Source: an uncultured bacterium (GTDB taxonomy: Bacteria; Bacillota_I; Bacilli_A; RFN20; CAG-826). Taken from it: a DNA stretch of 36,236 bases. Position 1 is the stretch's first letter, and every line of letters begins with the position of its first letter. The translations under genes were made by a program, and so were the position numbers. The notes below the pieces were generated by a model that saw only the letters and a program-made list of their open reading frames with translations, ran no database searches and was not told where the DNA came from. The stretch is taken from the NCBI GenBank assembly GCA_949292105.1, contig CASEYK010000038.1:1-36236 (forward strand), given 5' to 3'. This document shows positions 5,643 to 30,430 of the stretch, in pieces.

Positions 5643-7031
5643 TTAAGCATTGCCTTTCAATACTTTTTCTACAAAATCTTTATTAAACCAAAAACTCTGT
5701 TTTGTGTAAGAAATAATGCCGGTAATTTTATCAGGAACTGGCAAATCAAAAGTATCAGAACTTATTCTAGCGTGCGGTCTTACATGGCAGACACCATTAG
5801 AATTTCTATCCTCTTTTGGAAATTTGTCTTTTATCTTACCATTTTTGTCAAAATAAAAAGCATTGCCTTGCCTGACCATTTTGGCACAATGCTCGTACAT
5901 TGTTTTAATTGGTCCATCGACAATTGAATTCGGAGCATTCCAAAAATGAATTGTTTCAAATGTAATAACTCCATCAATTTCTTTAAAAACAAATATCATC
6001 AATTTTAAATCGACAAAATCTTCACGAACAGTTGACACATCCCAAGAACTATTTATTAATTCATCGAATTCAAATGATTTAAATGGCATTGCTTCTGTTG
6101 GCCGGCCATTTTTATCAACAGTTATTGTTCTAAAAATAATGCCTGCCGCTTCCATTTCAGCCGTTGCTTTTCTCTTGCCTGAAATCCCAAGCATTTTTTG
6201 ACACAAAATAAAATTAAGGTGCTTGGCTTTTGAATTAACGCCAAATTTTATGCATAACTGTTTTTGAGTCATTCCATAATATGCAGAAATTTTTTCCTTA
6301 TAAATTTCCTCAAGCGGACATTTCATCCATTCATCTTCGGAAAGCAAAGGTGAATAAGGAGCAACCTTATGAATTAAATTTCTATAAATATAGGTCATAA
6401 AAGACTGCTTAAAACTATATGCTCGTGGTTTGGCTTTGATTGGCGAATTATATTGTTCAGTAAGTACTTTGCTATTAGCACCTTTTGTACAAGCGGCTAA
6501 AAATTCTGTATCTGATTCAGAAATCTCATGAGCTTTTCCTTCTACTATCTTTTTGTGAATCAAATTCCAATCTCTTTCAATCACTTTGCATTGAAGAGAA
6601 TTTTCAAACTCAAACAAATCGTAATCAGTTATTTCAAATTCTGAAGGATGTGCTCCAATGGAGTATAAATAAAACCAAATTAATAATCTTTTATTTTTCT
6701 TGTAAAAGGAACTTGTTAAAAATGTTGTTGCTGCTTCGGCCTTGTAATTAATCATATTTAAAACGAGTCTCTCTTTTGATGATATTGTCCCGTCTTGATT
6801 CTTCTTGACTGGCGTTACTTTTAATTCAATTCCAGCATCAATAAAGTCAGGGTTCTCATCAGAGTTTGCTTTATATCCAAAAATATGTTCTTCTACGAAA
6901 CCGCCAAGACCGCCTTTGTTTTTGCTCATATAAGAATTATCTAAACCAAAATACCCAAAAGTCTTATGCAACGATTTTTTGGTTATTTCTAGAATTTCTT
7001 TTTCGCTTAGATGTCTATTTTTATCGTCCAT
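5643..7031 (-). CDS. Sau3AI/MutH-family type II restriction endonuclease (predicted GATC)
   Basis: A 462-residue endonuclease close in length to Sau3AI (about 490). The N-terminal catalytic domain shows GGFVEEHIFG, then PDFIDAGIELKVTP (D62/D65, E69, K71), then KERLVLNMI, the MutH/Sau3AI nuclease signature. The C-terminal half resembles the second MutH-like domain that Sau3AI uses as a DNA-binding allosteric site, but without an obvious catalytic set. Family members cut GATC. The gene is divergent from the C5 methyltransferase, as in other Sau3AI-type loci, and heads the minus-strand operon. A TATAAT box ends only 11 bases before the ATG and there is no Shine-Dalgarno site, so the message may be nearly leaderless. 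GATC specificity is by family, not proven. Confidence 0.88.
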   Translation of the reverse strand: MDDKNRHLSEKEILEITKKSLHKTFGYFGLDNSYMSKNKGGLGGFVEEHIFGYKANSDENPDFIDAGIELKVTPVKKNQDGTISSKERLVLNMINYKAEAATTFLTSSFYKKNKRLLIWFYLYSIGAHPSEFEITDYDLFEFENSLQCKVIERDWNLIHKKIVEGKAHEISESDTEFLAACTKGANSKVLTEQYNSPIKAKPRAYSFKQSFMTYIYRNLIHKVAPYSPLLSEDEWMKCPLEEIYKEKISAYYGMTQKQLCIKFGVNSKAKHLNFILCQKMLGISGKRKATAEMEAAGIIFRTITVDKNGRPTEAMPFKSFEFDELINSSWDVSTVREDFVDLKLMIFVFKEIDGVITFETIHFWNAPNSIVDGPIKTMYEHCAKMVRQGNAFYFDKNGKIKDKFPKEDRNSNGVCHVRPHARISSDTFDLPVPDKITGIISYTKQSFWFNKDFVEKVLKGNA

Positions 7032-7042
7032 ATACTGAGGAA

Positions 7043-7048
7043 ATTATA
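7043..7048 (-). promoter_or_regulatory. -10 box of the endonuclease operon
   Basis: A perfect TATAAT on the minus strand, 11 bases before the endonuclease ATG. No good -35 box is visible at the usual distance. The predicted start point leaves a leader of only about 4-5 bases. Confidence 0.5.
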
Positions 7049-7077
7049 ACAAAACACTTTAATAATTGGTAGAAAGC

Positions 7078-7083
7078 TATAAT
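7078..7083 (+). promoter_or_regulatory. -10 box of the C5 methyltransferase gene
   Basis: A perfect TATAAT on the plus strand with only a weak -35 match upstream. It would give a leader of about 80 bases before the ATG at 7173, in contrast to the near-leaderless endonuclease message on the other strand. The two promoters lie back to back in the 141-base divergent region. Confidence 0.45.
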
Positions 7084-7172
7084 GAAATACATTTAATAAA
7101 TTATCTAAAGAATTTATTGAAACTTTATTTTTGTTCTTGATCGTTCACCAACTGTGTAGTAAACTTAAGAAT

Positions 7173-8426
7173 ATGAAAAAAACTGTTGTCGAACTATTCG
7201 CTGGTGTCGGTGGATTCCGAGTTGGATTAAACAATATAACTAGAATTGACGAAAACGGAAAGGCAATCGAAAATGGCCCTTGGAAGTTCGTATGGGCTAA
7301 TCAATGGGAGCCATCAACAAAAGCGCAACACGCATTTGACTGCTATAATATTAGATTTCCATCTGCGGTTGAAAACTCTAATGTGGATATCTCCAAAGTA
7401 GATAAAAAAACTATTCCTAATCATACTTTGCTCTGCGGTGGGTTTCCTTGCCAAGACTATTCTGTTGCTCATTCCCTAAGCAGTTCACATGGAATTGAGG
7501 GCAAAAAAGGTGTTTTATGGTGGCAAATTAATGATGTTTTGGCAGTTAAAAAACCCCCGTTTGTTCTTTTGGAAAACGTTGATAGATTGATTAAGTCACC
7601 AGCCAAACAGCGCGGAAGAGATTTCGGTATTATGCTCCACTGTTTTGCTAAACAGGGTTATGCCCTAGAATGGAGAGTAATTAACGCTGCAGATTATGGT
7701 CATCCTCAAAGAAGACGCAGGATATTCATTTTTGCTTTTCATAAAAGTACCAACTATTACAAATCACTCATTAAAATTTCTGCCGTCAAAATTATTTCAA
7801 AAGAAGGCTTGTTTGCTAAAGAATTCCCAGTTGAAAATATTTCAGAAAAAAATATAAGGCAAATCAATTTAATTAATGGTTTTAAAGATTTAGTTGATAT
7901 ATCTGAAAATTTCCGTGCTTCATTCGGAAATACTGGTTGTGTGGTTGGCAACAAAGTATATACAGCAAATACAAAACCAATTAAAACGAAACCTATGGTT
8001 TTGAATGATATAATTGAGAAACGCCAAGTTGACAAGCATTATTTTCTAAGCGAATCACAAAAGAAACAATACGAATATCTTCGTGGTTCCAAAAAAATTC
8101 TTAGAAAAGATAAAAATGGTTTTGAATATATGTATTCTGAGGGATCAATGTCGGCATATGATGATTTATTGCTTCCAGCAAGAACAATGTTGACATCTGA
8201 AAGTACAACCAATAGAAGTACACACATAATTAAAGATCCAAAAACCAAAAAACTCAGGGTTTTAACACCAATTGAATGTGAAAGAATTAATCAATTTCCT
8301 GATAATTGGACTAATTCAGGAATGCCAGAAAACAGACGATATTTTATGATGGGAAACGCATTGGTGTGTGGCATCATTTCTAAAATCGGCAAACAAATTG
8401 AAAAAATAGTAGAAAAAGAAAAATAG
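7173..8426 (+). CDS. DNA (cytosine-5)-methyltransferase, M.Sau3AI-like
   Basis: A 417-residue C5-cytosine methyltransferase, which moves a methyl group from S-adenosylmethionine to cytosine in its target. Motif I is VELFAGVGGFRVG (residues 6-18), motif IV is GGFPCQDYS with catalytic C93, motif VI is LLENVDR, motif VIII is the DYGHPQRRRR block, and motif X is MMGNALV near the end. The variable region with a target-recognition domain lies between VIII and IX. I chose ATG 7173 because residues before it are not family-like and the frame otherwise opens with a TTG at 7131. Length is close to M.Sau3AI (about 412). It is divergent from the endonuclease and should protect GATC sites, by family inference. 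Confidence 0.92.
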   Translation: MKKTVVELFAGVGGFRVGLNNITRIDENGKAIENGPWKFVWANQWEPSTKAQHAFDCYNIRFPSAVENSNVDISKVDKKTIPNHTLLCGGFPCQDYSVAHSLSSSHGIEGKKGVLWWQINDVLAVKKPPFVLLENVDRLIKSPAKQRGRDFGIMLHCFAKQGYALEWRVINAADYGHPQRRRRIFIFAFHKSTNYYKSLIKISAVKIISKEGLFAKEFPVENISEKNIRQINLINGFKDLVDISENFRASFGNTGCVVGNKVYTANTKPIKTKPMVLNDIIEKRQVDKHYFLSESQKKQYEYLRGSKKILRKDKNGFEYMYSEGSMSAYDDLLLPARTMLTSESTTNRSTHIIKDPKTKKLRVLTPIECERINQFPDNWTNSGMPENRRYFMMGNALVCGIISKIGKQIEKIVEKEK

Positions 8427-10598: not shown

Positions 10599-12698
10599 TT
10601 ATAAAGAAGTAGAAACACCTTCTATCGTTTTTATTATTTCATCACAAAGATCAATGATATAGTCGGGAATCTGCTTTACTCCTAAAACAGTATATAAATA
10701 TAAATTTTCAACGTGATAATTTTCTGTAATAAAATTTCTCAACTTTATATCCACAGGAACAGTATTTTTTTCTAAAATTGGTCTGATTAGGCGAATTTTT
10801 TCATAGTTGTCATTTGAATGTTTATACAAAGTAATTAAATCATTCAAGGAATTGTTAGATATGAAAACATTATAATCAAAACCAGGAATCTCATTTCTAA
10901 TTTCATTTATTCCAGCGCTTATCGCAGAACTATCCAAAGGTTTGCCATTTATTTTAATTGGTGTTGCTCGTAAATGCTCAGCATTTGATAAGATATGATA
11001 AATAGGTTTACTATGTTGAGTTCCGAGTAGGTCGTAATATCTTCTTAAATGAATTATCTTTAAATAGTCAATTGAATTATTTTGTACCTGCTTATACTCA
11101 GCGGTAATTACATTTTGAATATCATCTTTTTTTATTTCTTTTTCGGATACTTCGCCTTTATTATTAATCAAAAGATGAGCCTTTTTAGGAATTTTTATAA
11201 AATCGTTTTTAATAATGTCTAAAAGCGGTTCCATATCATGAGTTAAAAGAATCACAGTTTTATCTTTTAAAACACCATTTGTTTCATTAAACAAATAGTG
11301 AATTACAGCAAATTTTTTGTTTTCATCAAACGAAGAAATAGGATCATCAAGAATAACCAAATCCGTTTTCTTTCTCTTAGCAATTGCTCCAAATAAAGCA
11401 AGACTTAATACGTTCATTTCTCCATATGAGAGATGTTGTGTTGCATCTTCAAGAATTATAGTTTTATTTAATAATGGCTTTAACATTGTTTGAGAATCAC
11501 CGTTTTCGTCAACATCAATATTGAACACATATGGAATACCTGCATATTTTAAAAATGTATTAATCTCATTTTCTGTATTGTTGATTGAATCTTTAATTAA
11601 GTAATTAAACTCCTTCATTAAGTCATAAAAATCATCAAATTCCTTTATCAATTTATCTATGGAATTATTTACTTTGACTGCGTTTTCTTTTAGTTCCTTT
11701 TCCAATCCATCAAAATATGTTAAATCTAATTTATTATTAACATAGTATTTTTTGATATCTTCCTTAGTATATCTATTTCTAAAAGAAAATCTAGTTTGAT
11801 GTATCAAAGATTCGATTTTATTTTTCTCAACTTCTGCTTTGTAGAATGTTTTCGCTAACAATTCCTGTTGTTCATCAGAAAGTGGGTCCTAAACAGTATT
11901 TATAGATTCAATTATTGTTTTTGTACCACTATCGGTAACAGTAGATAAATCAATGATAATTTGTTTGGCGGTATTATTCTTTTTAAAATCATTTTCTTTA
12001 ATAATAGAAGCTATTTTATTTTTAATATCATCAAAGTGTTCAGGTAATTTTTGAGCACAATAAGGACATCTGTCGTCTAATGCAAAGTTTACGCCATTAT
12101 TAAACCAAGAAAACCAATCAGGAGATTTAGGATTATTAATCCATAAAGAATACTCTTTTAGCTCAGATTTAGAGATCTTTTCGGCATAAGCTGGACCATT
12201 TTTAAATCCTTTTCCAACAGTACTTGAACCGCTTATAGTCTTTTTATCTTTATTAAATTTTAGTTGCCCACTAATTTTGTTAATTTTTTCAACAAATAAA
12301 TTTAAAGAAGGTGAACTAGCATTCTTAGATAGATTTAGTAAAGCACTATTAATCTCTTCTTCTTTTTTGACTAATGAGTCATCGTTAAAGAAAATAGAAT
12401 ACGATTCATTAATAACATTATTGTCACCTTGAAAAAGCCATTTGCTAATATAATCTCTATTAAAAGACATGCAAGAGTTGAATGTGCTAGATATAGAGAT
12501 TGCAGGATTTCCACCATTAAAAGGGGCGAGTTTATCTATTTCTTCATTAAGTTTGTTGATGCTAAAGTCTATAGCTTTTCCAATAGAACTTTTTCCTAAT
12601 CCGTTATATCCATATTTAATGTTGATAGATTTTTCCTCAATAACAATTTCTGCTTTTTTAACAGATTGAACATTTTCTATTTTTATATTTGTACTCAT
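10599..12698 (-). pseudogene. PrrC/RloC-like AAA ATPase gene interrupted by an in-frame TAG
   Basis: One long reading frame of about 699 codons, interrupted only by a TAG codon at 11889-11891; both sides are in the same frame. The N-terminal part has GYNGLGKSS (Walker A) and CPYCAQKLP, a zinc-hook-like pair. The C-terminal part has the ABC signature LSYGEMNVLSLA, Walker B LVILDDPISSFD, and RPILE with a later H in NYHVENLY, which recalls the R-x3-E...H anticodon-nuclease triad of PrrC/RloC, though the spacing differs. The start at 12698 has a fine ribosome site (GGAGGAAAAAG). Without the TAG this would be an intact AAA_13-type effector ATPase. It is a recent nonsense pseudogene, or less likely a readthrough gene; other genes here use TAG as a true stop. 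Confidence 0.75.
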
Positions 12699-12783
12699 CT
12701 TTTTCCTCCACATTCACCTTTGAACTCAAATCACTACGATTATTTAGGCTCAAAATTTTAACTGTTTTCTTCTCCATCCATTA

Positions 12784-17158: not shown

Positions 17159-20100
17159 CTATTTCTCCTTCACTGCGTAAACATCAGAATCGGTTAGCTC
17201 ATCGTTGCCCACAAGGAATTTAACATCTAACGGCAAATCAATGCTTTCAAGTTCGGTTTCTGCACCTGCTTCAAAAATATAAACTCCTTCATTTGGCCAA
17301 TAAACTATTGCGCGTTTTTTAAGCGCTTTCCCATTAATTTCAACTTCTCCAAACATCTTCTTTGGTAATGTGAGGGAAGATATTATCTTTTCAGCACTTG
17401 CTGTAAAAAGTCCTTTTGCAGTTTTGAAGAATGAGTCCCAATTCGTAAATGGGAAATTGCTTTCATTTTTCAACGTAATCTTGGTAGAGATATGTTTCTT
17501 GGGAATTGCATCAATATAAGGTTGTAAGAAATTGATTACAAGTTCTCTGCTTAAAATATCATGATATTTTTGGTTATCATAAGTCCTTAAACATTTATAA
17601 CAAGAAGATTTTGGATCACATGTGCAGTTCAAAGATTTTAAATAAGCAGCGTTTATTACTTCAGCTAAATTCATGAAGTCGTTATCTAATAATTGTTTAA
17701 CGTGACCTGCGCCTCCAGGAACATTATCAAATAGGATAAATCTGTAATTCATGGTCCCGCCAAGAAGATCGTCTCGTTTAATAACGCCTGATATTTCGTT
17801 CCTTTCAATGTGGAGTTCGTTCGAAATTGCGTCAATTAAAGCAAACAATACAGAAGTCGCTGTTGCATCATCGATGCTCTGAGCGTTGTTAAAGATTATT
17901 TGAACAATGTCTGTATTAAAAGCATGGTATAAAGTCTTTTTCTCAAGCGTGAGACAATTACATGGTTTACCATTTGGTCTATTATGCCCTTTTTGAACTG
18001 TTAAATCCTTTTTTGTGCCAGCTTGAAGAATTCCTGTTGCAACTTTGTCAAGTTTGCCATTTTTGTCCCTGATTTTATCATATCTTCCATATGCAAAACC
18101 GCATTTTGGACAAACATAGAACGGTTCTCCTTTAGCAGATGTAACAATGATTTTATCTTTTCTGGATGAAATAACAGTTATCTGAGAATGATTAAAATCA
18201 AGAACTGTTTTGTTGGCTGAGTGGTCTTCTTCTATATAATAGAAATCGGATCTATATACTTTTTTCGGTCTTGATAACGGAACTTCTTCAGGCTTGTTGC
18301 CATCTGTTATCATGCCAGCAGATGGGCTTATTGCTTCTTCCCAGACAACACCATTAAGAGAAACACCACAACCTTCGCATTTTTTATTTGTTGGGGTATT
18401 GGTATATGAGACGTTTAGTGTGCCACATCCACTGCAATATGAGACATATAATTTATCAAAATCCTTTTCTCCATTTTTCCAGTATTTAGAAATGTAACGT
18501 GCAGTGTACATTTTGTTATCTGCAATAACTTTAGAACCAGGAGCATAGTCACTAATTGCTTGAGTCATGTCTCTATTTAATCTCAAACCTCTATTGCTAT
18601 TGCTAGAATCATAGAGATGCTCTCCGCCAATTTTTAATTCTACGGTATCAACAGGGAATCCATACTTAGGAAGAATGTTACCTTCAACTAAGAAATCAAT
18701 GATTGAAGTTCCCTTGTATCTTTCCAAATCCTTTTCTTTATAACCGGAAATAAGTTTCCAATCTTTTCCCTGTGCAACTTCAATTGCTTTAATGTCATTA
18801 AGATAATCTTGAACGACTGAATTATATTCTTTGACTGCGGATGTTAGACGACCATTTGTTCCGATTAATTCAGAAACCCATTCACCAGAATAATCAGATA
18901 TACCAAATTCAGAATCCAAATCAGTAAAAGAGCAATGCAGCACATTTGCTAAATTCTGATCCTTATTCTTTAACATCTCTGTGAATTCATCTAATCCACC
19001 ATTTTCAATGAAATAGGAAATTGGTCTTTGCTTGCCTTCGTCATCTTCAAAATATGCTTCATATTTATTAAAGAAGTATCCAAAGCAAGTAGAGAATATA
19101 TGTCTATAAACAATTTTTGGATTATCTAACTTAAAGAATGGAGGCGTGATCTCACCATTAATCATTTCTTGTGGTTTTTCATAAAAATTGAAATCATGTG
19201 ATGAAAGTTTTGCAAATGATAACACAAAAGCAGCAGAATCTTTACTTCTGCCTGCACGACCGGCTCTCTGAGCATAATTGGCTGTGCTTGGTGGAATATC
19301 TCTTAAAAATACGGTTTCAAGTTCACCGACATCAACACCCATTTCAAATGTTGTTGAGCAGGACAATGCATTTATATTATTCTTTTCAAACTGGTTTTGG
19401 TAAGCCGATGCATCATGCTTACTTAATTGTGCTGTATGCTCCCTAACAAGCATTTTTTTAAGATACCTATCTTCACCGTATTTGAAAAATTTCAAATAGT
19501 GATTGTTTTTTAAATAATCTTGAACATTAGATAATTCTTCCAAATCGCCAGAACACTTTGTGACTAAACATTTATTTTTAAAGCCAATCGTTGTTATCTT
19601 CCCACACTTTTTGCATCGATACCATTTAACATTCTTATGTTCTGGAATCTTAATCGTAATAGACGATGTTGGGAGAGCATACCATGGATTAGAACCATCA
19701 ATACTTATTGCATGATAAGGGTTGGAAGAATTAATTAAGTAATCAAAATATTCTCCTAGGAATTTATTTGCTTCTTTTGTTTTTGTTTTATCATCAAATG
19801 CTTTCAAAGCAAGTTCTTGACGATAAGTTTTGTAATATTTATTTGGATCGCTTTCTCTAGCCATTGGCAACCAGTTTCCAATGTTAGGAAGCGAAAAACC
19901 GCTCTTACTTTTTTGAATGCCTTTTTGGTCTTTAACGAAAAACACTTCTTTTCTTGTTTCGAGTTTTAGATCGTAATTGTCGGTAATAATTGCTCCAAAA
20001 TAGGCAAAAGTCATCGCCAACTCATCGAGCAACTCTTTTACATCAAAATTACTTAATGAAGGAAAGTAAACCTGTTTAAAATAGCTAACAATCTTATCGT

Positions 20101-22519
20101 TGTTTCCAAGATATTCATATTTCAAAAACCCAAGAGATTGTAAACTACTGGAATATTTGCATGAAACTAACTCTTTTAAAATAACAAGCCAGGCATTTTC
20201 TTCACATAACGCTTTATGTTCCGCTGGTTTTGGATTCTTCAATAAGTCATCAATGAAAGTAAGATTTTTATGGAATAATTTGGCCAATTTATCAGCAAAG
20301 ATATTCAGATTCCACATTTCATCAAAGTAGTCCTCATCCATAAGGGCCTTTTTGTTTTTTTCTAATAATTCAACAAAAAGTCTTTTTGCCATCATGTTCT
20401 GATAAGTTCTATCCAAATAACTTGAAAAATATGCAGCTTCAGCTCTGGAATCAGAGAAGGCTAGGAACTGTTTTCCGGCCATTTTAACTATTTTTTCATT
20501 AGGGAGACCGGGCAGAGGCGATTCAACTTCCACCGTTACCGGCTTAATAGGGAGCTCCTCAAATAATGCGGTAGCCAAAACACCCGTAGCAGCTTCTGTA
20601 CCAATATAGAATTTATTATATTCACCGTTGAAACAATAAAGGCAGCGACTCTTTGAATGAATCACCTTTTTCGAATAAGATCTTATGTGCATCAAATCAG
20701 ATTTTGGATGTTTACAAGTTGGATATCCATCAGCTATTAACGATATTTCTCCACAATGTGGACACAAATAATAGTCATCTACATCTTTTGACTCGGTTAT
20801 GTCCGCTTGTTTGATGTGAGCCAACTCTTCTTCGTCGTCAATATCAGCTTCCTTTTCTTCGGCTTCTTGGAAATCAACTTCACCTTCATCAGGATCATCG
20901 TTATCAATTTTCGTTTTAACAATATGGAAAAACATTGGTTCTTCATCTTCAACTCTGTCATGAAGTGTAGAATCTCTATTTTTCAAATAAGTGGTTCCGT
21001 TTTCATCTTGAATATACCCAACAATGGCAATATCACCACAATGTTTGCAAATAGAAATCTCGAATACTCTATCTTCGATATTTCCTTTTTGAATATATTC
21101 TTTTCTCTCGAGGAACGCTGCTTTATTTCCTGTAAAGCAGCAATAAAATCCTTCTAATGTTCTGACAAAAAAGTGAAATCTAAGATCAACCAAAACAGAA
21201 TTCTTATTTCTGCAAAGAGAGCAAACATGCAAGAAAGCAACAGTTTGATCTTCTGTGAGTTCAAGCCAATCAGCAATTGTTTGTATAACAACTGGCTCAA
21301 CAAAAAGCATTCTTAAAGTCTTGTACATTGAACAGCACGAACAAACATTAAACAAATTCTCTTTATATTCGAGTTTATCATCGTAATCTAAATTATATTT
21401 TTGGAATAATGGCTTGTAATCCTCAGTTTCATTTGAAGCACATTCTTCAAAGAAGCCTATTGGTACATTTAAAGTTTGATTACCCATGAAAAATGGTTCT
21501 CGATGGCCAAATACGATTGTATCAGTGCCAAACGCTTCTCCTGTTAAGTTCTCAGCAAAATCGCTAATATCTTTCTCGGCTTTTCCTTCTTCACCAAGTG
21601 TCGCACTTGTCAAAATGTACTGAGGATGTGATTTTTCTTGGTTGATTCTCGCAATAAGTCTTCTAATAAGCAGAGATGTCTCCATTCCTGTTGCCCCTGA
21701 ATAAGAATGGGCTTCATCCAAAACAATAAATTTTACGTTTGATCCAGCAAAAACAGCTCCTCTATTAGGTGTAAGAAGCATATATTCTAGCATCGCATAG
21801 TTTGTACATAGAATATGAGGTGGATTCTTAACCATTTCTTCTCTGGTTAAAGGTTCATTAGGCAAAGGCCATCTTAATTTCTCAACGGCTTCATTTTCGT
21901 GCAATTCGTTATACCATTTTCTTCTATCACCACTGTATGGAGTGTCACCATTAAAAACACCAAATCTTATTTCTGGATATTCCATCAAAAGATTTCTGAG
22001 CCTTTTCATTTGGTCATTAGCTAAAGCGTTCATTGGATAAATAAGAATCGCTCTAACTCCCGGCTTTGAAAGGGTGCCTTCTTCTTTTTCTCTTAAAAGA
22101 GAATTAATTAGTGGATACAAGAAGCATTCCGTTTTTCCTGAACCAGTTCCGGACGTAACAACGATATTGCGCTTGCTATTTAATAACCTGATTGCTCTTT
22201 CTTGATGAAGATAAAGAGGCCTGTCTGGCACTATGCTTCTTTTGTATTTCAACTCATTGGGTTTGTTTTTTTCAATTTCTGTAAATAAAGGCGATAATAC
22301 ACCCTCTTTTATTAAATCGTTAATCGTGCATCCTTTAACAAAATTGGTATTTATATCAACGTATGGACCCTTGCAAATTGTTTTTTCAAGTTCTTTTCTG
22401 AATTGTTTACCAAAATTTACTACATCTTGGTCGCCATCAATTGGGAAGTTCAATGCAGTAGTAATATAATCAATGAATTCTTCTTTAATTTTCTTTGAAC
22501 TTTTCGCAGGATTAAACAT
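17159..22519 (-). CDS. Giant DEAH helicase with C-terminal DUF1998 (Druantia DruE/YprA-like)
   Basis: A 1786-residue superfamily 2 helicase. Motif I GTGSGKT is at 124-130, Ia is YPMNALANDQ, Ic is CTNYAMLEY, motif II DEAH at 268-271, motif III TSATLG, motif IV AFSDSRAEA, and motifs V-VI run FEMGVDVG to QRAGRAGR. Many cysteine pairs (CSCC, CKHCG, CPHCG, CKKCG, CSGCG, CEGCG) imply inserted zinc ribbons. The C-terminal region FDNVPGGAGHV ... SCYKCLRTYDNQKYHDILSREL is the DUF1998/MrfB zinc domain. This architecture and great length resemble DruE of Druantia and relatives of YprA/MrfA and DISARM helicases. The ribosome site GAGGAG precedes ATG 22519, 11 bases after the 955-residue gene. It is the likely motor of the system. 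Confidence 0.92.
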   Translation of the reverse strand: MFNPAKSSKKIKEEFIDYITTALNFPIDGDQDVVNFGKQFRKELEKTICKGPYVDINTNFVKGCTINDLIKEGVLSPLFTEIEKNKPNELKYKRSIVPDRPLYLHQERAIRLLNSKRNIVVTSGTGSGKTECFLYPLINSLLREKEEGTLSKPGVRAILIYPMNALANDQMKRLRNLLMEYPEIRFGVFNGDTPYSGDRRKWYNELHENEAVEKLRWPLPNEPLTREEMVKNPPHILCTNYAMLEYMLLTPNRGAVFAGSNVKFIVLDEAHSYSGATGMETSLLIRRLIARINQEKSHPQYILTSATLGEEGKAEKDISDFAENLTGEAFGTDTIVFGHREPFFMGNQTLNVPIGFFEECASNETEDYKPLFQKYNLDYDDKLEYKENLFNVCSCCSMYKTLRMLFVEPVVIQTIADWLELTEDQTVAFLHVCSLCRNKNSVLVDLRFHFFVRTLEGFYCCFTGNKAAFLERKEYIQKGNIEDRVFEISICKHCGDIAIVGYIQDENGTTYLKNRDSTLHDRVEDEEPMFFHIVKTKIDNDDPDEGEVDFQEAEEKEADIDDEEELAHIKQADITESKDVDDYYLCPHCGEISLIADGYPTCKHPKSDLMHIRSYSKKVIHSKSRCLYCFNGEYNKFYIGTEAATGVLATALFEELPIKPVTVEVESPLPGLPNEKIVKMAGKQFLAFSDSRAEAAYFSSYLDRTYQNMMAKRLFVELLEKNKKALMDEDYFDEMWNLNIFADKLAKLFHKNLTFIDDLLKNPKPAEHKALCEENAWLVILKELVSCKYSSSLQSLGFLKYEYLGNNDKIVSYFKQVYFPSLSNFDVKELLDELAMTFAYFGAIITDNYDLKLETRKEVFFVKDQKGIQKSKSGFSLPNIGNWLPMARESDPNKYYKTYRQELALKAFDDKTKTKEANKFLGEYFDYLINSSNPYHAISIDGSNPWYALPTSSITIKIPEHKNVKWYRCKKCGKITTIGFKNKCLVTKCSGDLEELSNVQDYLKNNHYLKFFKYGEDRYLKKMLVREHTAQLSKHDASAYQNQFEKNNINALSCSTTFEMGVDVGELETVFLRDIPPSTANYAQRAGRAGRSKDSAAFVLSFAKLSSHDFNFYEKPQEMINGEITPPFFKLDNPKIVYRHIFSTCFGYFFNKYEAYFEDDEGKQRPISYFIENGGLDEFTEMLKNKDQNLANVLHCSFTDLDSEFGISDYSGEWVSELIGTNGRLTSAVKEYNSVVQDYLNDIKAIEVAQGKDWKLISGYKEKDLERYKGTSIIDFLVEGNILPKYGFPVDTVELKIGGEHLYDSSNSNRGLRLNRDMTQAISDYAPGSKVIADNKMYTARYISKYWKNGEKDFDKLYVSYCSGCGTLNVSYTNTPTNKKCEGCGVSLNGVVWEEAISPSAGMITDGNKPEEVPLSRPKKVYRSDFYYIEEDHSANKTVLDFNHSQITVISSRKDKIIVTSAKGEPFYVCPKCGFAYGRYDKIRDKNGKLDKVATGILQAGTKKDLTVQKGHNRPNGKPCNCLTLEKKTLYHAFNTDIVQIIFNNAQSIDDATATSVLFALIDAISNELHIERNEISGVIKRDDLLGGTMNYRFILFDNVPGGAGHVKQLLDNDFMNLAEVINAAYLKSLNCTCDPKSSCYKCLRTYDNQKYHDILSRELVINFLQPYIDAIPKKHISTKITLKNESNFPFTNWDSFFKTAKGLFTASAEKIISSLTLPKKMFGEVEINGKALKKRAIVYWPNEGVYIFEAGAETELESIDLPLDVKFLVGNDELTDSDVYAVKEK

Positions 22520-26595: not shown

Positions 26596-26634
26596 AAGCC
26601 CAATGCTTCATTGCAAAGGGCTTCTTTTTATTTT
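26596..26634. terminator. Bidirectional Rho-independent terminator
   Basis: Stem AAGCCC..TGC / GCA..GGGCTT (26596-26623) with a T-rich tail on the plus strand (26625-26634) and six T on the minus strand. It ends the two small plus-strand genes and the DpnII-like gene that converges on it. Confidence 0.8.
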
Positions 26635-27531
26635 CTGTTTAACAAACTCTGTAAATATTTTGTGGAGTCAACCAAAGTATCAATTGCACCATTTTCTAAA
26701 TCCTTGAGATTATAAAGATTATCAAGGACATCAAATGTTTCTTCTAGGTTGTGTTTCGCACTATTCCAGCCAATGCCATCCGTAAACCACACGAATTGAA
26801 AGCCTGTTATATTTCTAGATTCTTCAGTTAATGTTTTATAGCTTCTGGCTGTTTCATTAAGTTTTGAGCCGCCACCATTATAAAAGTTGCATTCACAAGC
26901 AAACACGGTTCCTAAAGCACCAACAAACACAAAATCAAATCTCTTTTCTGCCTTACCATCATTACTAAGCTTAGATAAATCTAAATGGAACTTTTTTTTC
27001 TACATCAGAAGCATACATTTCTTTGAAATATGTTTTGCCTTTAACTAAGCCCGCTTTAATAAGATACGATTCAACCAAATCTTCCATAACATGACCGGTT
27101 CTATTTTTTCTTCCGTTAGTATCCATTCCGACTTCGATACCCAAGACATAATCCACCAAGTTATTGATAATGTGGTTTTGCAATAAATCAAAGAGACCAC
27201 TATTTCTCATAAAGAGTGCATATTGTTCAACTGTGTAATTCATATTTACAAAGTTAAATACATAGCTTCCATCAGCATCTTGTACTTTAATCTCAGCTTC
27301 TCTTTTCGCTAAAAGAATTGGTACCACGACCAAAACATTAGGATACTGAGTAACAATAGACTTGAATTCTTCTTCGATATTTTTAGAGCCAATAAGCGAG
27401 TTTAAAATATTGAGTTCAACTTTTATTTTTTGGACATTCTCATAAACCTTGTCAAAATCAGTATAGTAAGTCCATGTAGCTATACTATCTTTCATTGTTG
27501 ATAGCCAATTGTTGAAATCTCTATTCGCCAT
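26628..27531 (-). pseudogene. DpnII-family restriction endonuclease, frameshifted in an A8 tract
   Basis: The ATG at 27531 has a ribosome site GAGGAG. The first frame runs MANRDFNNWL to GIEVGMDTNGRKNRTGHVMEDLVESYL and KEMYASDVEKK, then goes wrong. At 26992-26999 the coding strand has eight A; with seven the frame continues as FHLDLSKLSNDGKAEKRFDFVFVG and ECNFYNGGGSKLNETARSYK, the catalytic half of DpnII-type enzymes, to the stop. The restored product is about 300 residues; DpnII itself is about 288. Family members cut GATC lacking adenine methylation. No DpnM/DpnA-type adenine methylase is in the window. The break may be a disabling mutation, a slippery phase-variable tract, or a sequencing error. 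Confidence 0.85.
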
Positions 27532-27541
27532 AAATGCTCCT

Positions 27542-27721
27542 CTATCTTCTGTTATCCCACTTGATATCAGCTTGGTTATTATCTGCCCAAGCAATAACAT
27601 CATAAATGTCAGCATCATCTTCAGAAATTCTTGTGATGATTGTTTTAAACATAAATGCTTTTTCGGTTGCAGACTTTTCATTACCAGAAAGTAGCATTAG
27701 AATCTGGTGAAGTGCTTTCAT
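27542..27721 (-). CDS. 59-residue protein in the DpnII-like operon
   Basis: A small acidic, mostly helical protein (MKALHQILMLLSGNEKSATEK ... DIYDVIAWADNN). Its ATG overlaps the TGA of the upstream gene (ATGA), and its stop lies 10 bases before the endonuclease ATG, so it is a true operon member by position. I do not recognise the family. A regulator or endonuclease-binding partner are possibilities without direct evidence. Confidence 0.65.
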   Translation of the reverse strand: MKALHQILMLLSGNEKSATEKAFMFKTIITRISEDDADIYDVIAWADNNQADIKWDNRR

Positions 27722-28104
27722 TGACAAAAACCATATTCGTTTAAAGATTCGTACTCTGAAAGGTCAATATTATTAAGATGTGAGTTGATCCATTGTTCGA
27801 TATCATCTTTGCGGTTGGATTTAAATGTGTCTAAGGAATTCCATGAATTAACAAAAACCCTTAGGAATTGGTTCATCAAATCTTTGTCGTGCTCTTTTTT
27901 CATTAAAACATCAACCACCCAATAAATGTGTTTAATGTTCTTTTCTTCAGAATCACCTATTTTGCTATCAGTGATTGTCACCAAAATATCGGTATTGAGA
28001 TTACCCTTTGTTCCTTTTCTAACTCTAATGGTGATCCCGTCATCGTTAACAAATTCATACAATAATGGGTTATCGTCTAATGATTTTTTTCTCCAGCTTG
28101 ACAT
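27718..28104 (-). CDS. 128-residue protein opening the DpnII-like operon
   Basis: A soluble protein with a strand-rich first half (YEFVNDDGITIRVRKGTKG, TDILVTITDSKIG) and a helical second half ending in acidic residues (IDLSEYESLNEYGF). It starts after a GGAG site about 10 bases upstream and overlaps the 59-residue gene by four bases. No known domain is recognised. It precedes a restriction gene where a methylase would normally be expected, but it has no methylase motifs (no FxGxG, no DPPY or NPPF). Confidence 0.7.
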   Translation of the reverse strand: MSSWRKKSLDDNPLLYEFVNDDGITIRVRKGTKGNLNTDILVTITDSKIGDSEEKNIKHIYWVVDVLMKKEHDKDLMNQFLRVFVNSWNSLDTFKSNRKDDIEQWINSHLNNIDLSEYESLNEYGFCQ

Positions 28105-28654
28105 TTAGAGTTTTCTCCGCCTTCTATCCCTTTCCGAACCGCGTGCATGAAGGATATTGTGGTAATTACTTGTTTTGACTGGAAACTAATGCGATATCTA
28201 AAACTAATAAAATGCTTTAATTGCATTTTAAGATACCTAGGAGACACGAAAAGCCTCAAGACGAGGAATTTATCCATCCCACCACTGAAACGTGTCTCAA
28301 AACGTCTATTTTTGAAATCTCAAAAAATATAGGTCCCGTATATGTAAGCTCCTGCCAGCGGTCCTCTCCTTTTTTATTACGATTTGATAAGGGGAGGGGA
28401 GTCCTTTTACGCGTGCTTATTGATATTTTTGACATTTATGGGTTTACAAAACAGCTTCATTTCTCCGTATAACGTAAAGGTGGCAAATCGAAAAGTTGAA
28501 GAAATTTGCAAATCATACCCGAACAAAATAGCACTTGTTCTCCGTATAGTGAGCAGATAAAGCAACTTTGGAAGTTTAAAGCCCTAACGCTCAAAGCTAT
28601 GTTTCCAAGATTAAAAAGAGAAAGGTTGAAATAGTAAACATAACTGTTGCTATT
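28105..28654. other. 550-base region with no supported gene
   Basis: No reading frame here has a ribosome site and protein-like composition. It holds the upstream region of the DpnII-like operon (minus strand), a purine-rich stretch near 28390, and the 11-base direct repeats at 28461 and 28538. A short open stretch on the plus strand (about 28438-28560, FISPYNVKVANRKVEEIC) could be the trace of a small gene, but support is weak. Confidence 0.5.
28461..28548 (+). repeat. Direct repeat TTCTCCGTATA, two copies
   Basis: The 11-base word stands at 28461-28471 and 28538-28548, 77 bases from start to start, about 150-235 bases ahead of the recombinase gene. They could be binding sites or part of a recombination site. 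Confidence 0.6.
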
Positions 28655-28672
28655 ATCACTCTTAAGAGTGAT
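28655..28672. promoter_or_regulatory. 18-base perfect palindrome before the recombinase
   Basis: ATCACTCTTAAGAGTGAT is fully self-complementary and ends 10 bases before the AGGAGG ribosome site of the recombinase gene. It is a good candidate operator for that gene, or a recombinase binding site. Confidence 0.6.
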
Positions 28673-28696
28673 GTATGTATGTAGGAGGTACCACTT

Positions 28697-30430
28697 ATGG
28701 AAAGAGAAGTTCAAATTATAGCACCTAGACCAAAGCCTAAGTTTCTTTTCAATGGTTCAAAAATCCTTCCTACACAAAAACGAGTCGCTGCTTACTGTCG
28801 TGTATCGAGTGATAGAGACGAGCAGCTCAACAGCTTCGACAACCAGGTTGATGAATGGAAGAAAAGACTTGAGCAAGATCCAAGTGTTGTTTTGGTGGGT
28901 ATCTACGCTGACGAAGGTATCTCAGGTACATCTGAAGAAGGAAGATTAGAATTCCAAAGACTTATCAATGATGCCCGTGCGGGAAAGATAGATAAGATTG
29001 TTACTAAATCCATATCCAGGTTTGCTAGAAATATTCAAACATCAATTAACATCGCTAGAGAGTTAAAAGCCATCGGTGTTGAAATCTATTTTGATAATGA
29101 GCACATATCCACATTAGATCCTTCCAGTGAAGTCATGTTCACTATTAACGCTATTGTGGCTCAAGAGGAAGCTCGCCATATTTCAGAAAACGTTAAATGG
29201 ACTTTTAATAAAAACAAGAAAGAAGGCATACCTATGGTAAGCAGCAACCTTCTTGGTTATAGAAGGGATCCAGAAAACCCAAAGAACCTCATCATCATTC
29301 CTGAAGAAGCTCAAATAGTTAGAGAAATCTTTGAACTATACACCAAGGAGGTTGGCACCAATGAAATAGGCAGAATTCTTGAAAAGAAAGGCTATCTCAC
29401 TAGAAGAGGCAAGACCAAATGGTACAATTCCTCCATTGAAGGCGTTATCACCAACGAGAAATACTGTGGTGACTTAATCCTTCAAAAGAGTGTGACTGTC
29501 GATTTCCTAAGCCATAAAAGAATTAAAAACGATGGCATTGAAGAGAAAGTCTATATTAGAAACAATCATGAACCTATTGTAAGTAGAGAAGTCTGGGATA
29601 AAGCTCAGCTCATCTACGCCAAGAATAGAGATAGATTCAGAGGAGAAAACAAAGACAGCAGAAAATATGCATCTAAATATCCTTTAAGCGGTATGCTTGT
29701 TTGTCTTAACTGTGGCAACACCTATAAAAGAAGACATTGGACACAAGGCTATGCAGAGCCAAGAATTATGTTTCAATGCAATAACTTCATCAACGGCTAT
29801 GAATTTAATAAATGTCACTCGCAAGCAATAAGCGAAGATATTCTCCTTAAAGCAACAGCGGAAGTTATTAACCGTGTCTATTTAGAAAAGGGCAAAGCAT
29901 TGAGCACACTCATGAAAAATATTGAGTCTCAAATCAACGATGAAAGCACCGAAGACCAGGTTAACGAGCTAAAACGAAAACAAGAAACCATAGAAGATGA
30001 AATTGACGAGATTATTAAAAAGAAGCAGTTCGCTGACGAGCTTGAAAGAATTCTCTTAGAGAAACAATACAAAGAGCGTATTGTGGAATATCGCGATTTA
30101 GAAAACAAGATCAACGGACTTCTCAGCAAAAGCAAAGAAGTTGAACTAGCAAAGCATAGGTTGCTCAATATGGGTAAATCGTTAAATGGAGAAAAACTCA
30201 CAGGTCAAACGTTAACTAAACCAATTGTCCAAACTTGTATCGAGTCCATCATTGTCATTGACAAGCACAACATTGTGTTCGTTCTTCCCAACAACGAAAA
30301 AGCCAACTACGAACTTATAAAAGAAAGAAGAGAAAGCCTTGTACAACACACTCCTGTCTTAGAAGGAAACGTTACTTATCCAAGAAGGTTTAGACCAGAA
30401 CGCCTGCACTATAAAGTGGTGTTAATGTAA
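28697..30430 (+). CDS. Large serine recombinase (site-specific integrase)
   Basis: A 577-residue recombinase of the large serine type, which cuts and rejoins DNA through a serine-phosphate link. The resolvase domain starts AAYCRVSSDRDEQ with likely catalytic S37, followed by DEGISGTS and ITKSISRFARN. The Recombinase domain (LLGYRRDP ... GRILEKKGYLTRRG) comes next, then a zinc ribbon (CLNCG ... CNNF ... KCHS) and a coiled coil (about 415-490, NELKRKQETIEDEIDEI). A perfect AGGAGG site precedes ATG 28697. It probably moves an element in this region; its codon use looks richer in G and C than the defence genes to its left. Length and all domains are intact. Confidence 0.95.
   Translation: MEREVQIIAPRPKPKFLFNGSKILPTQKRVAAYCRVSSDRDEQLNSFDNQVDEWKKRLEQDPSVVLVGIYADEGISGTSEEGRLEFQRLINDARAGKIDKIVTKSISRFARNIQTSINIARELKAIGVEIYFDNEHISTLDPSSEVMFTINAIVAQEEARHISENVKWTFNKNKKEGIPMVSSNLLGYRRDPENPKNLIIIPEEAQIVREIFELYTKEVGTNEIGRILEKKGYLTRRGKTKWYNSSIEGVITNEKYCGDLILQKSVTVDFLSHKRIKNDGIEEKVYIRNNHEPIVSREVWDKAQLIYAKNRDRFRGENKDSRKYASKYPLSGMLVCLNCGNTYKRRHWTQGYAEPRIMFQCNNFINGYEFNKCHSQAISEDILLKATAEVINRVYLEKGKALSTLMKNIESQINDESTEDQVNELKRKQETIEDEIDEIIKKKQFADELERILLEKQYKERIVEYRDLENKINGLLSKSKEVELAKHRLLNMGKSLNGEKLTGQTLTKPIVQTCIESIIVIDKHNIVFVLPNNEKANYELIKERRESLVQHTPVLEGNVTYPRRFRPERLHYKVVLM

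Follow-up and report, generated by a model that had tools for sequence, protein, structure and literature searches.

The DpnII Locus and Its Two Frameshifts

The window, by which we mean the whole 36,236-nucleotide stretch of DNA that was analysed, is contig C38 of a bacterial assembly of 994,892 bases in 53 contigs (97.1% complete). On its minus strand lie a gene of the DpnII restriction endonuclease family and an adjoining open reading frame (ORF), here called the companion, and each of the two carries one single-base homopolymer indel. The public relatives nearest to the DpnII gene are labelled rumen Erysipelotrichaceae, Bacilli and similar. L020, the nearest relative, is an intact locus with the gene order DpnM-DpnA-companion-DpnII and serves as the reference in the features listed below.

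26971 to 27531, minus strand: DpnII-family ORF up to its premature stop (PF04556, E 1.8e-63, profile positions 1-178 of 278)
26992 to 26999, minus strand: A8 tract (T8 on the plus strand) that breaks the DpnII frame, one base longer than in L020
26628 to 26990, minus strand: remaining 120 codons of DpnII, in the next frame, with conserved nuclease-core positions (whole-genome profile scan)
27718 to 28104, minus strand: 5' part of the companion ORF, 128 aa to a premature stop, resembling the L020 companion; no Pfam match
27726 to 27730, minus strand: T5 run (A5 on the plus strand), the second frameshift; T6 in L020, one base longer
27542 to 27724, minus strand: 3' part of the companion ORF in a shifted frame, ending just before DpnII (coordinates by arithmetic)
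28697 to 30430, plus strand: serine recombinase (PF00239, PF07508, PF13408), divergent from the DpnII locus
5643 to 7031, minus strand: Sau3AI-family restriction endonuclease (NF040973, 415 bits, cut-off 300)
7131 to 8426, plus strand: C5-cytosine methyltransferase (PF00145; PADLOC MTase_II, E 1.2e-168)

The DpnII gene begins with an ATG at 27531, and a ribosome-binding-like AGAGGAG stands shortly 5' of it. Its 5' ORF encodes 186 aa, made up of residues 1-180 in frame and a short out-of-frame tail; the frame is lost after about residue 180 of 300 and resumes past the A8 tract. The whole-genome scan matched the next frame, at 26679-27041, to PF04556 profile positions 164-277, and both pieces (1-178 and 164-277) score above the cut-off, which places the gene in the family by sequence. 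No single open frame runs through the nuclease core: D199, E213, N215 and the later conserved positions are out of frame. At the tract L020 reads GAAAAGAAATTC, one base fewer than the window, and a second copy in the same genome, on contig C18, reads GAAAAGAAGTTC. Thus, one extra A breaks the frame of the window gene. The original prediction, made from the letters of the window, had placed the disruption of a DpnII-like frame at exactly this A8 tract, had held that seven A would restore the frame, and had described the gene as otherwise intact with good signals; all of this is borne out, the rest of the reading frame being intact. Cleavage of unmethylated GATC is presumably the specificity of the enzyme, which we assign from the family alone. 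Runs of at least eight A or T number two in the window, against 21.3 (S.D. 4.8) in 100 first-order Markov simulations, and promoter-like sites at the DpnII locus did not exceed those of shuffled sequence.

The second frameshift, that of the companion ORF, was absent from the original prediction. Amino acid identity between the window and L020 companions is 68-71% before the lesion (71% over residues 10-127) and 73% past it, over 60 codons, whereas the two pieces of the window DpnII are 97% and 91% identical to the L020 enzyme. The companion ORF, at 68% and 73% identity, is generally under less constraint.

What the Truncated Enzyme Lacks

The L020 enzyme as modelled by AlphaFold (pLDDT 90, pTM 0.68) most closely resembles DNA-bound BstEII (Z 11.8, 7.8 Å over 252 residues), and several nucleases match it only at residues ~141-295; a sequence search for solved DpnII relatives gave none at E 0.1. 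According to this model, the frameshift at residue 180 would remove three predicted strands of the nuclease core, at residues 197-203, 209-216 and 244-251, which hold D199, E213, N215 and W248-T250-D251. Many of the invariant residues of DpnII fall in the lost 120 residues, where the conserved positions are D199, E213, N215, Y217, G221-S222-K223 and W248-T250-D251-G252, and we take it from the family that the PD-(D/E)xK catalytic residues are among them. Because the 186-aa product lacks most of the predicted PD-(D/E)xK core, it is not expected to be a working restriction enzyme.

Relatives of the Locus and Age of the Lesion

In genome_contigs, 127 stretches matched the search pattern and 95 encode a relative, the best 80 of which were retained. 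The original prediction had proposed that relatives be checked for a methylase and for an A7 tract. A DpnM or DpnA homologue lies within 2 kb in all 80 of these best 80 of 95 relatives (DpnM in 75, DpnA in 64). At the tract itself, none of the 82 copies compared (the best 80 of 95 loci and two paralogues from the same genome) is split. The full tract alignment has 92 rows, namely the best 80 of 95 loci, nine loci from genomes of the bacterial family (partly repeats), the two paralogues and the window. The longest A run is 2 in eight rows, 3 in 39, 4 in 26, 5 in five, 6 in 10, 7 in two and 8 in two, so that the run is at most 5 in 78 of 92 rows and the homopolymer is not conserved. A7 is indeed found in two intact relatives, L014 and L044, both in frame; A8 is found in the window and in L051, which is in frame. 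The condition, also raised at the outset, that all relatives might carry further inactivating changes does not hold, since the frame of the relatives is open at the tract; a single relative, L052, has a stop elsewhere, in frame near residue 235. A few relatives have DpnII cut by contig ends.

Closer to the host, a DpnII match is present in 10 of 146 genomes of the bacterial family, its own included, and the locus contains a methylase homologue in the other nine of nine. A search of the two genomes of the genus gave no copy in the other one. The exact 26-base pattern had no match in viral_contigs, and a protein search of the same set gave three loci, none of them a same-species copy. A distant blastn search with 26600-28700 returned one phage record and three plasmid records at 64-67% identity.

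Relative to L020, dN/dS is 0.015 before the A8 tract (177 codons) and 0.023 after it (120 codons), ratios that are rough in view of a dS of at least 1. At positions where all seven compared sequences agree, the window copy has one private amino acid change in each part. A dN/dS of ~0.02 on both sides argues against a long period of relaxed selection, and on these comparisons the break would be very recent, or else not fixed or not real. A long-standing pseudogene is ruled out by these ratios together with the 120 open codons past the tract.

Methylases and Other DpnII Copies in the Assembly

The statement in the original prediction that no DpnM/DpnA methylase is nearby agrees with our searches: the window contains no adenine methylase, and in the whole genome PF02086 and PF01555 have one match each, both on contig C14. 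Next to the window locus no trace of DpnM or DpnA was detected, and the side on which relatives have these genes is occupied by the serine recombinase. The former presence of both methylases here is suggested by the arrangement in the relatives.

The C14 contig carries a whole DpnM-DpnA-companion-DpnII operon in which all genes are open. Its products are a D12 methylase of 347 aa, whose N-terminal part has a helix-turn-helix, an N6_N4 methylase of 265 aa, a companion of 177 aa and a DpnII of 296 aa. Since C14 is 6.4 kb long, its assignment to the same genome depends on binning. Given this complete operon, GATC adenine methylation is probably available in the host through the C14 methylases. 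The warning that, with no methylase nearby, an active enzyme could kill the host is thereby weakened.

The copy on C18 (L007, 5132-6196), also without a methylase nearby, is 85% identical in DNA sequence to the window gene and is open at the tract. It is a chimera, in which an unrelated 85-aa stretch stands in place of the conserved first ~32 residues of DpnII and the DpnII portion starts at about residue 33, with the frame open. The missing part includes F6, W9, Y22 and D25, each kept in at least 95% of sequences. The 85-aa stretch resembles the N termini of proteins in eight of 141 other genomes searched from the bacterial family, most of them in open frames of 183-237 aa, and the ORF upstream of the chimera is presumably UvrC, from its appearance. 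The DpnII of C14, beside its methylases, is the only whole copy in the assembly.

In its endonuclease sequence, the window locus is like the DpnII restriction-modification (RM) system (DpnM-DpnA-DpnII; PF04556, D12-class Dam and N6_N4_Mtase), and the intact L020 and C14 loci share the gene order of that system. They differ from it by the additional companion ORF, which the family libraries searched do not name. The window differs in that both methylases are missing and the endonuclease and companion are frameshifted.

Neighbouring Genes

The adjoining genes at 5643-8426 form a Sau3AI-type RM system, with NF040973 above its cut-off and a PF00145 match, and the C5-cytosine methyltransferase is probably the partner of the Sau3AI-type enzyme. 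The pair adds another GATC-type system to this small genome. According to a study of Metamycoplasma hominis (PMC10305163), DpnII is independent of 5mC methylation; the pair is therefore not expected to protect against DpnII.

A PDC-S06-type ATPase defence gene (10599-12713) is split by one in-frame TAG, with no homopolymer involved; the parts on either side match profile positions 2-265 and 290-689 of 693. A large helicase (17159-22519) resembles Druantia DruE (PADLOC, E 3.5e-170), and upstream of it is a 955-aa ORF without a family match. No structured RNA or tRNA of known kind was found in the window.

Origin of the Frameshifts

We consider it probable that the window locus is what remains of a mobile DpnII operon, redundant and without methylases, and that replication slippage inactivated it recently. 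The starting point would have been a mobile DpnII (GATC) RM operon with the order DpnM-DpnA-companion-DpnII, from which both methylase genes have gone at this locus. Separation from the methylases may have made the window copy redundant or useless, and one-base slips in mononucleotide runs, one in the companion ORF and one (A7 to A8, giving the 186-aa product) in DpnII, would then have been fixed by drift or weak selection. What was observed directly is the pair of frameshifts, the missing methylases, the intact C14 operon, the intact relatives and the lack of decay beyond the lesions. The Metamycoplasma hominis study (PMC10305163) describes a comparable case, in which a DpnII-type system decays strain by strain, likewise beside a Sau3AI-type RM system. 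In those degraded loci it is the endonuclease gene that has disappeared and dam genes, or fragments of them, that persist, whereas in the window the situation is reversed, the methylases being absent and an endonuclease pseudogene remaining.

The main rival is that one or both indels are unreal and the gene is whole, as a result of an assembly, sequencing or strain-consensus artefact. Both lesions are single-base homopolymer changes, the sequence past them has not decayed, and the assembly is fragmented into its 53 contigs, all of which would fit such an error. We nonetheless regard it as unlikely. T5 is a very common length, and the 18 other ORFs of the window (29,763 bases) are all open despite 203 5-mers, 69 6-mers, 18 7-mers and one 8-mer, the 203 runs of 5 included, an open frame being no proof of full length for each ORF. 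Furthermore, both lesions fall within 1.46 kb, in a locus that lacks its methylases as well; the chance that two random indels over 31.2 kb of coding sequence would both fall there is ~0.002 by arithmetic. The break in the nearby PDC-S06-type gene is a point nonsense mutation, so real gene loss is under way in another defence gene. Together, the open ORFs, the clustering and this TAG favour real local gene loss.

The original prediction had suggested that the tract could be a switch, either phase-variable or by transcriptional slippage, and neither form fares well. A phase-variable switch would toggle DpnII through slippage of the A tract during replication, with the C14 methylases making the on state safe. 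The A8 tract is among only two such long runs in the window, the coding sequence past it is conserved, and repeat-driven phase variation of methyltransferases is published for Mycoplasma agalactiae (PMC9465063) and proposed for M. hominis (PMC10305163), the former resembling the window in having a repeat-length frameshift in an RM gene. These cases, however, are methylases with poly-G, GA or TA repeats, and the poly-G/GA tracts of M. agalactiae vary within and between strains, whereas the window tract is not conserved and is known from one assembly. A contingency locus would keep a long simple repeat at the same place in its homologues; here the run is of 2-5 A in 78 of 92 rows. The missing methylases at the locus also speak against a switch, and the companion gene, with its separate frameshift, would need a reversal of its own. 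We judge such a switch improbable in the window, and as a family-wide device it is ruled out by the alignment. There is a still smaller chance that the methylase-less window and C18 copies share the C14 methylases in trans, with slip-prone tracts re-activating the window copy under phage pressure; if true, this would constitute an unlinked, reversible reserve of GATC nucleases in one small genome. Least probable of all is that transcriptional slippage on A8 yields a small amount of full-length DpnII. Bacterial A runs are slippage-prone according to PMC1088944, but the same paper places evident selection against slippage, in a large proportion of genomes, from nine nucleotides, and the tract has eight; nor would slippage there rescue the companion ORF. 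Among the papers listed by literature searches, none described a DpnII endonuclease gene switched by a homopolymer, which is weak evidence.

Read as the remnant of a DpnII operon, the locus would be a clean example of the recent loss of an RM system in a genome of ~1 Mb, the only whole DpnII copy being still beside its methylases. The general picture of phase variation is unchanged by it.

GATC Depletion and the Companion Family

GATC avoidance was considered as a sign of an active enzyme and rejected, depletion being equally strong without a DpnII match and hence uninformative on the window gene. GATC occurs in the window at 0.43 of the second-order expectation, and at 0.30 in the genome of the same genus that has no DpnII match. 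It is the most depleted 4-base palindrome in samples of nine of 13 further genomes of the bacterial family, DpnII match or not, the ratio ranging from 0.36 to 1.07 over all 13. Few 4-base palindromes are as depleted as GATC across that family (window, L113-L132), whether a DpnII gene is present or not.

The companion belongs to an unnamed family of ~180 aa with the motif IHWxVDxLxK, found beside DpnII in contigs of Bacilli, Clostridia and Bacteroidales. Searches of Pfam, NCBIfam and PHROGs gave no match above cut-off or of weight. The fold model of the family is confident (pLDDT 88); it had no clear match in the PDB, where the best row reached only Z 4.1 (3.5 Å, 73 residues), and none at E 0.001 or better in the viral set. 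Members lie upstream of DpnII in the window (27542-28104), L006 (1913-2446), L020 (5417-5992), L078, L079, L092 and L093, and downstream of it in L032, L037, L038 and L074; more distant members are found within 10 kb of DpnII in L050, L053, L056 and L067-L069. The locus points in this way to an unnamed ~180-aa family as a companion of DpnII in several bacterial groups.
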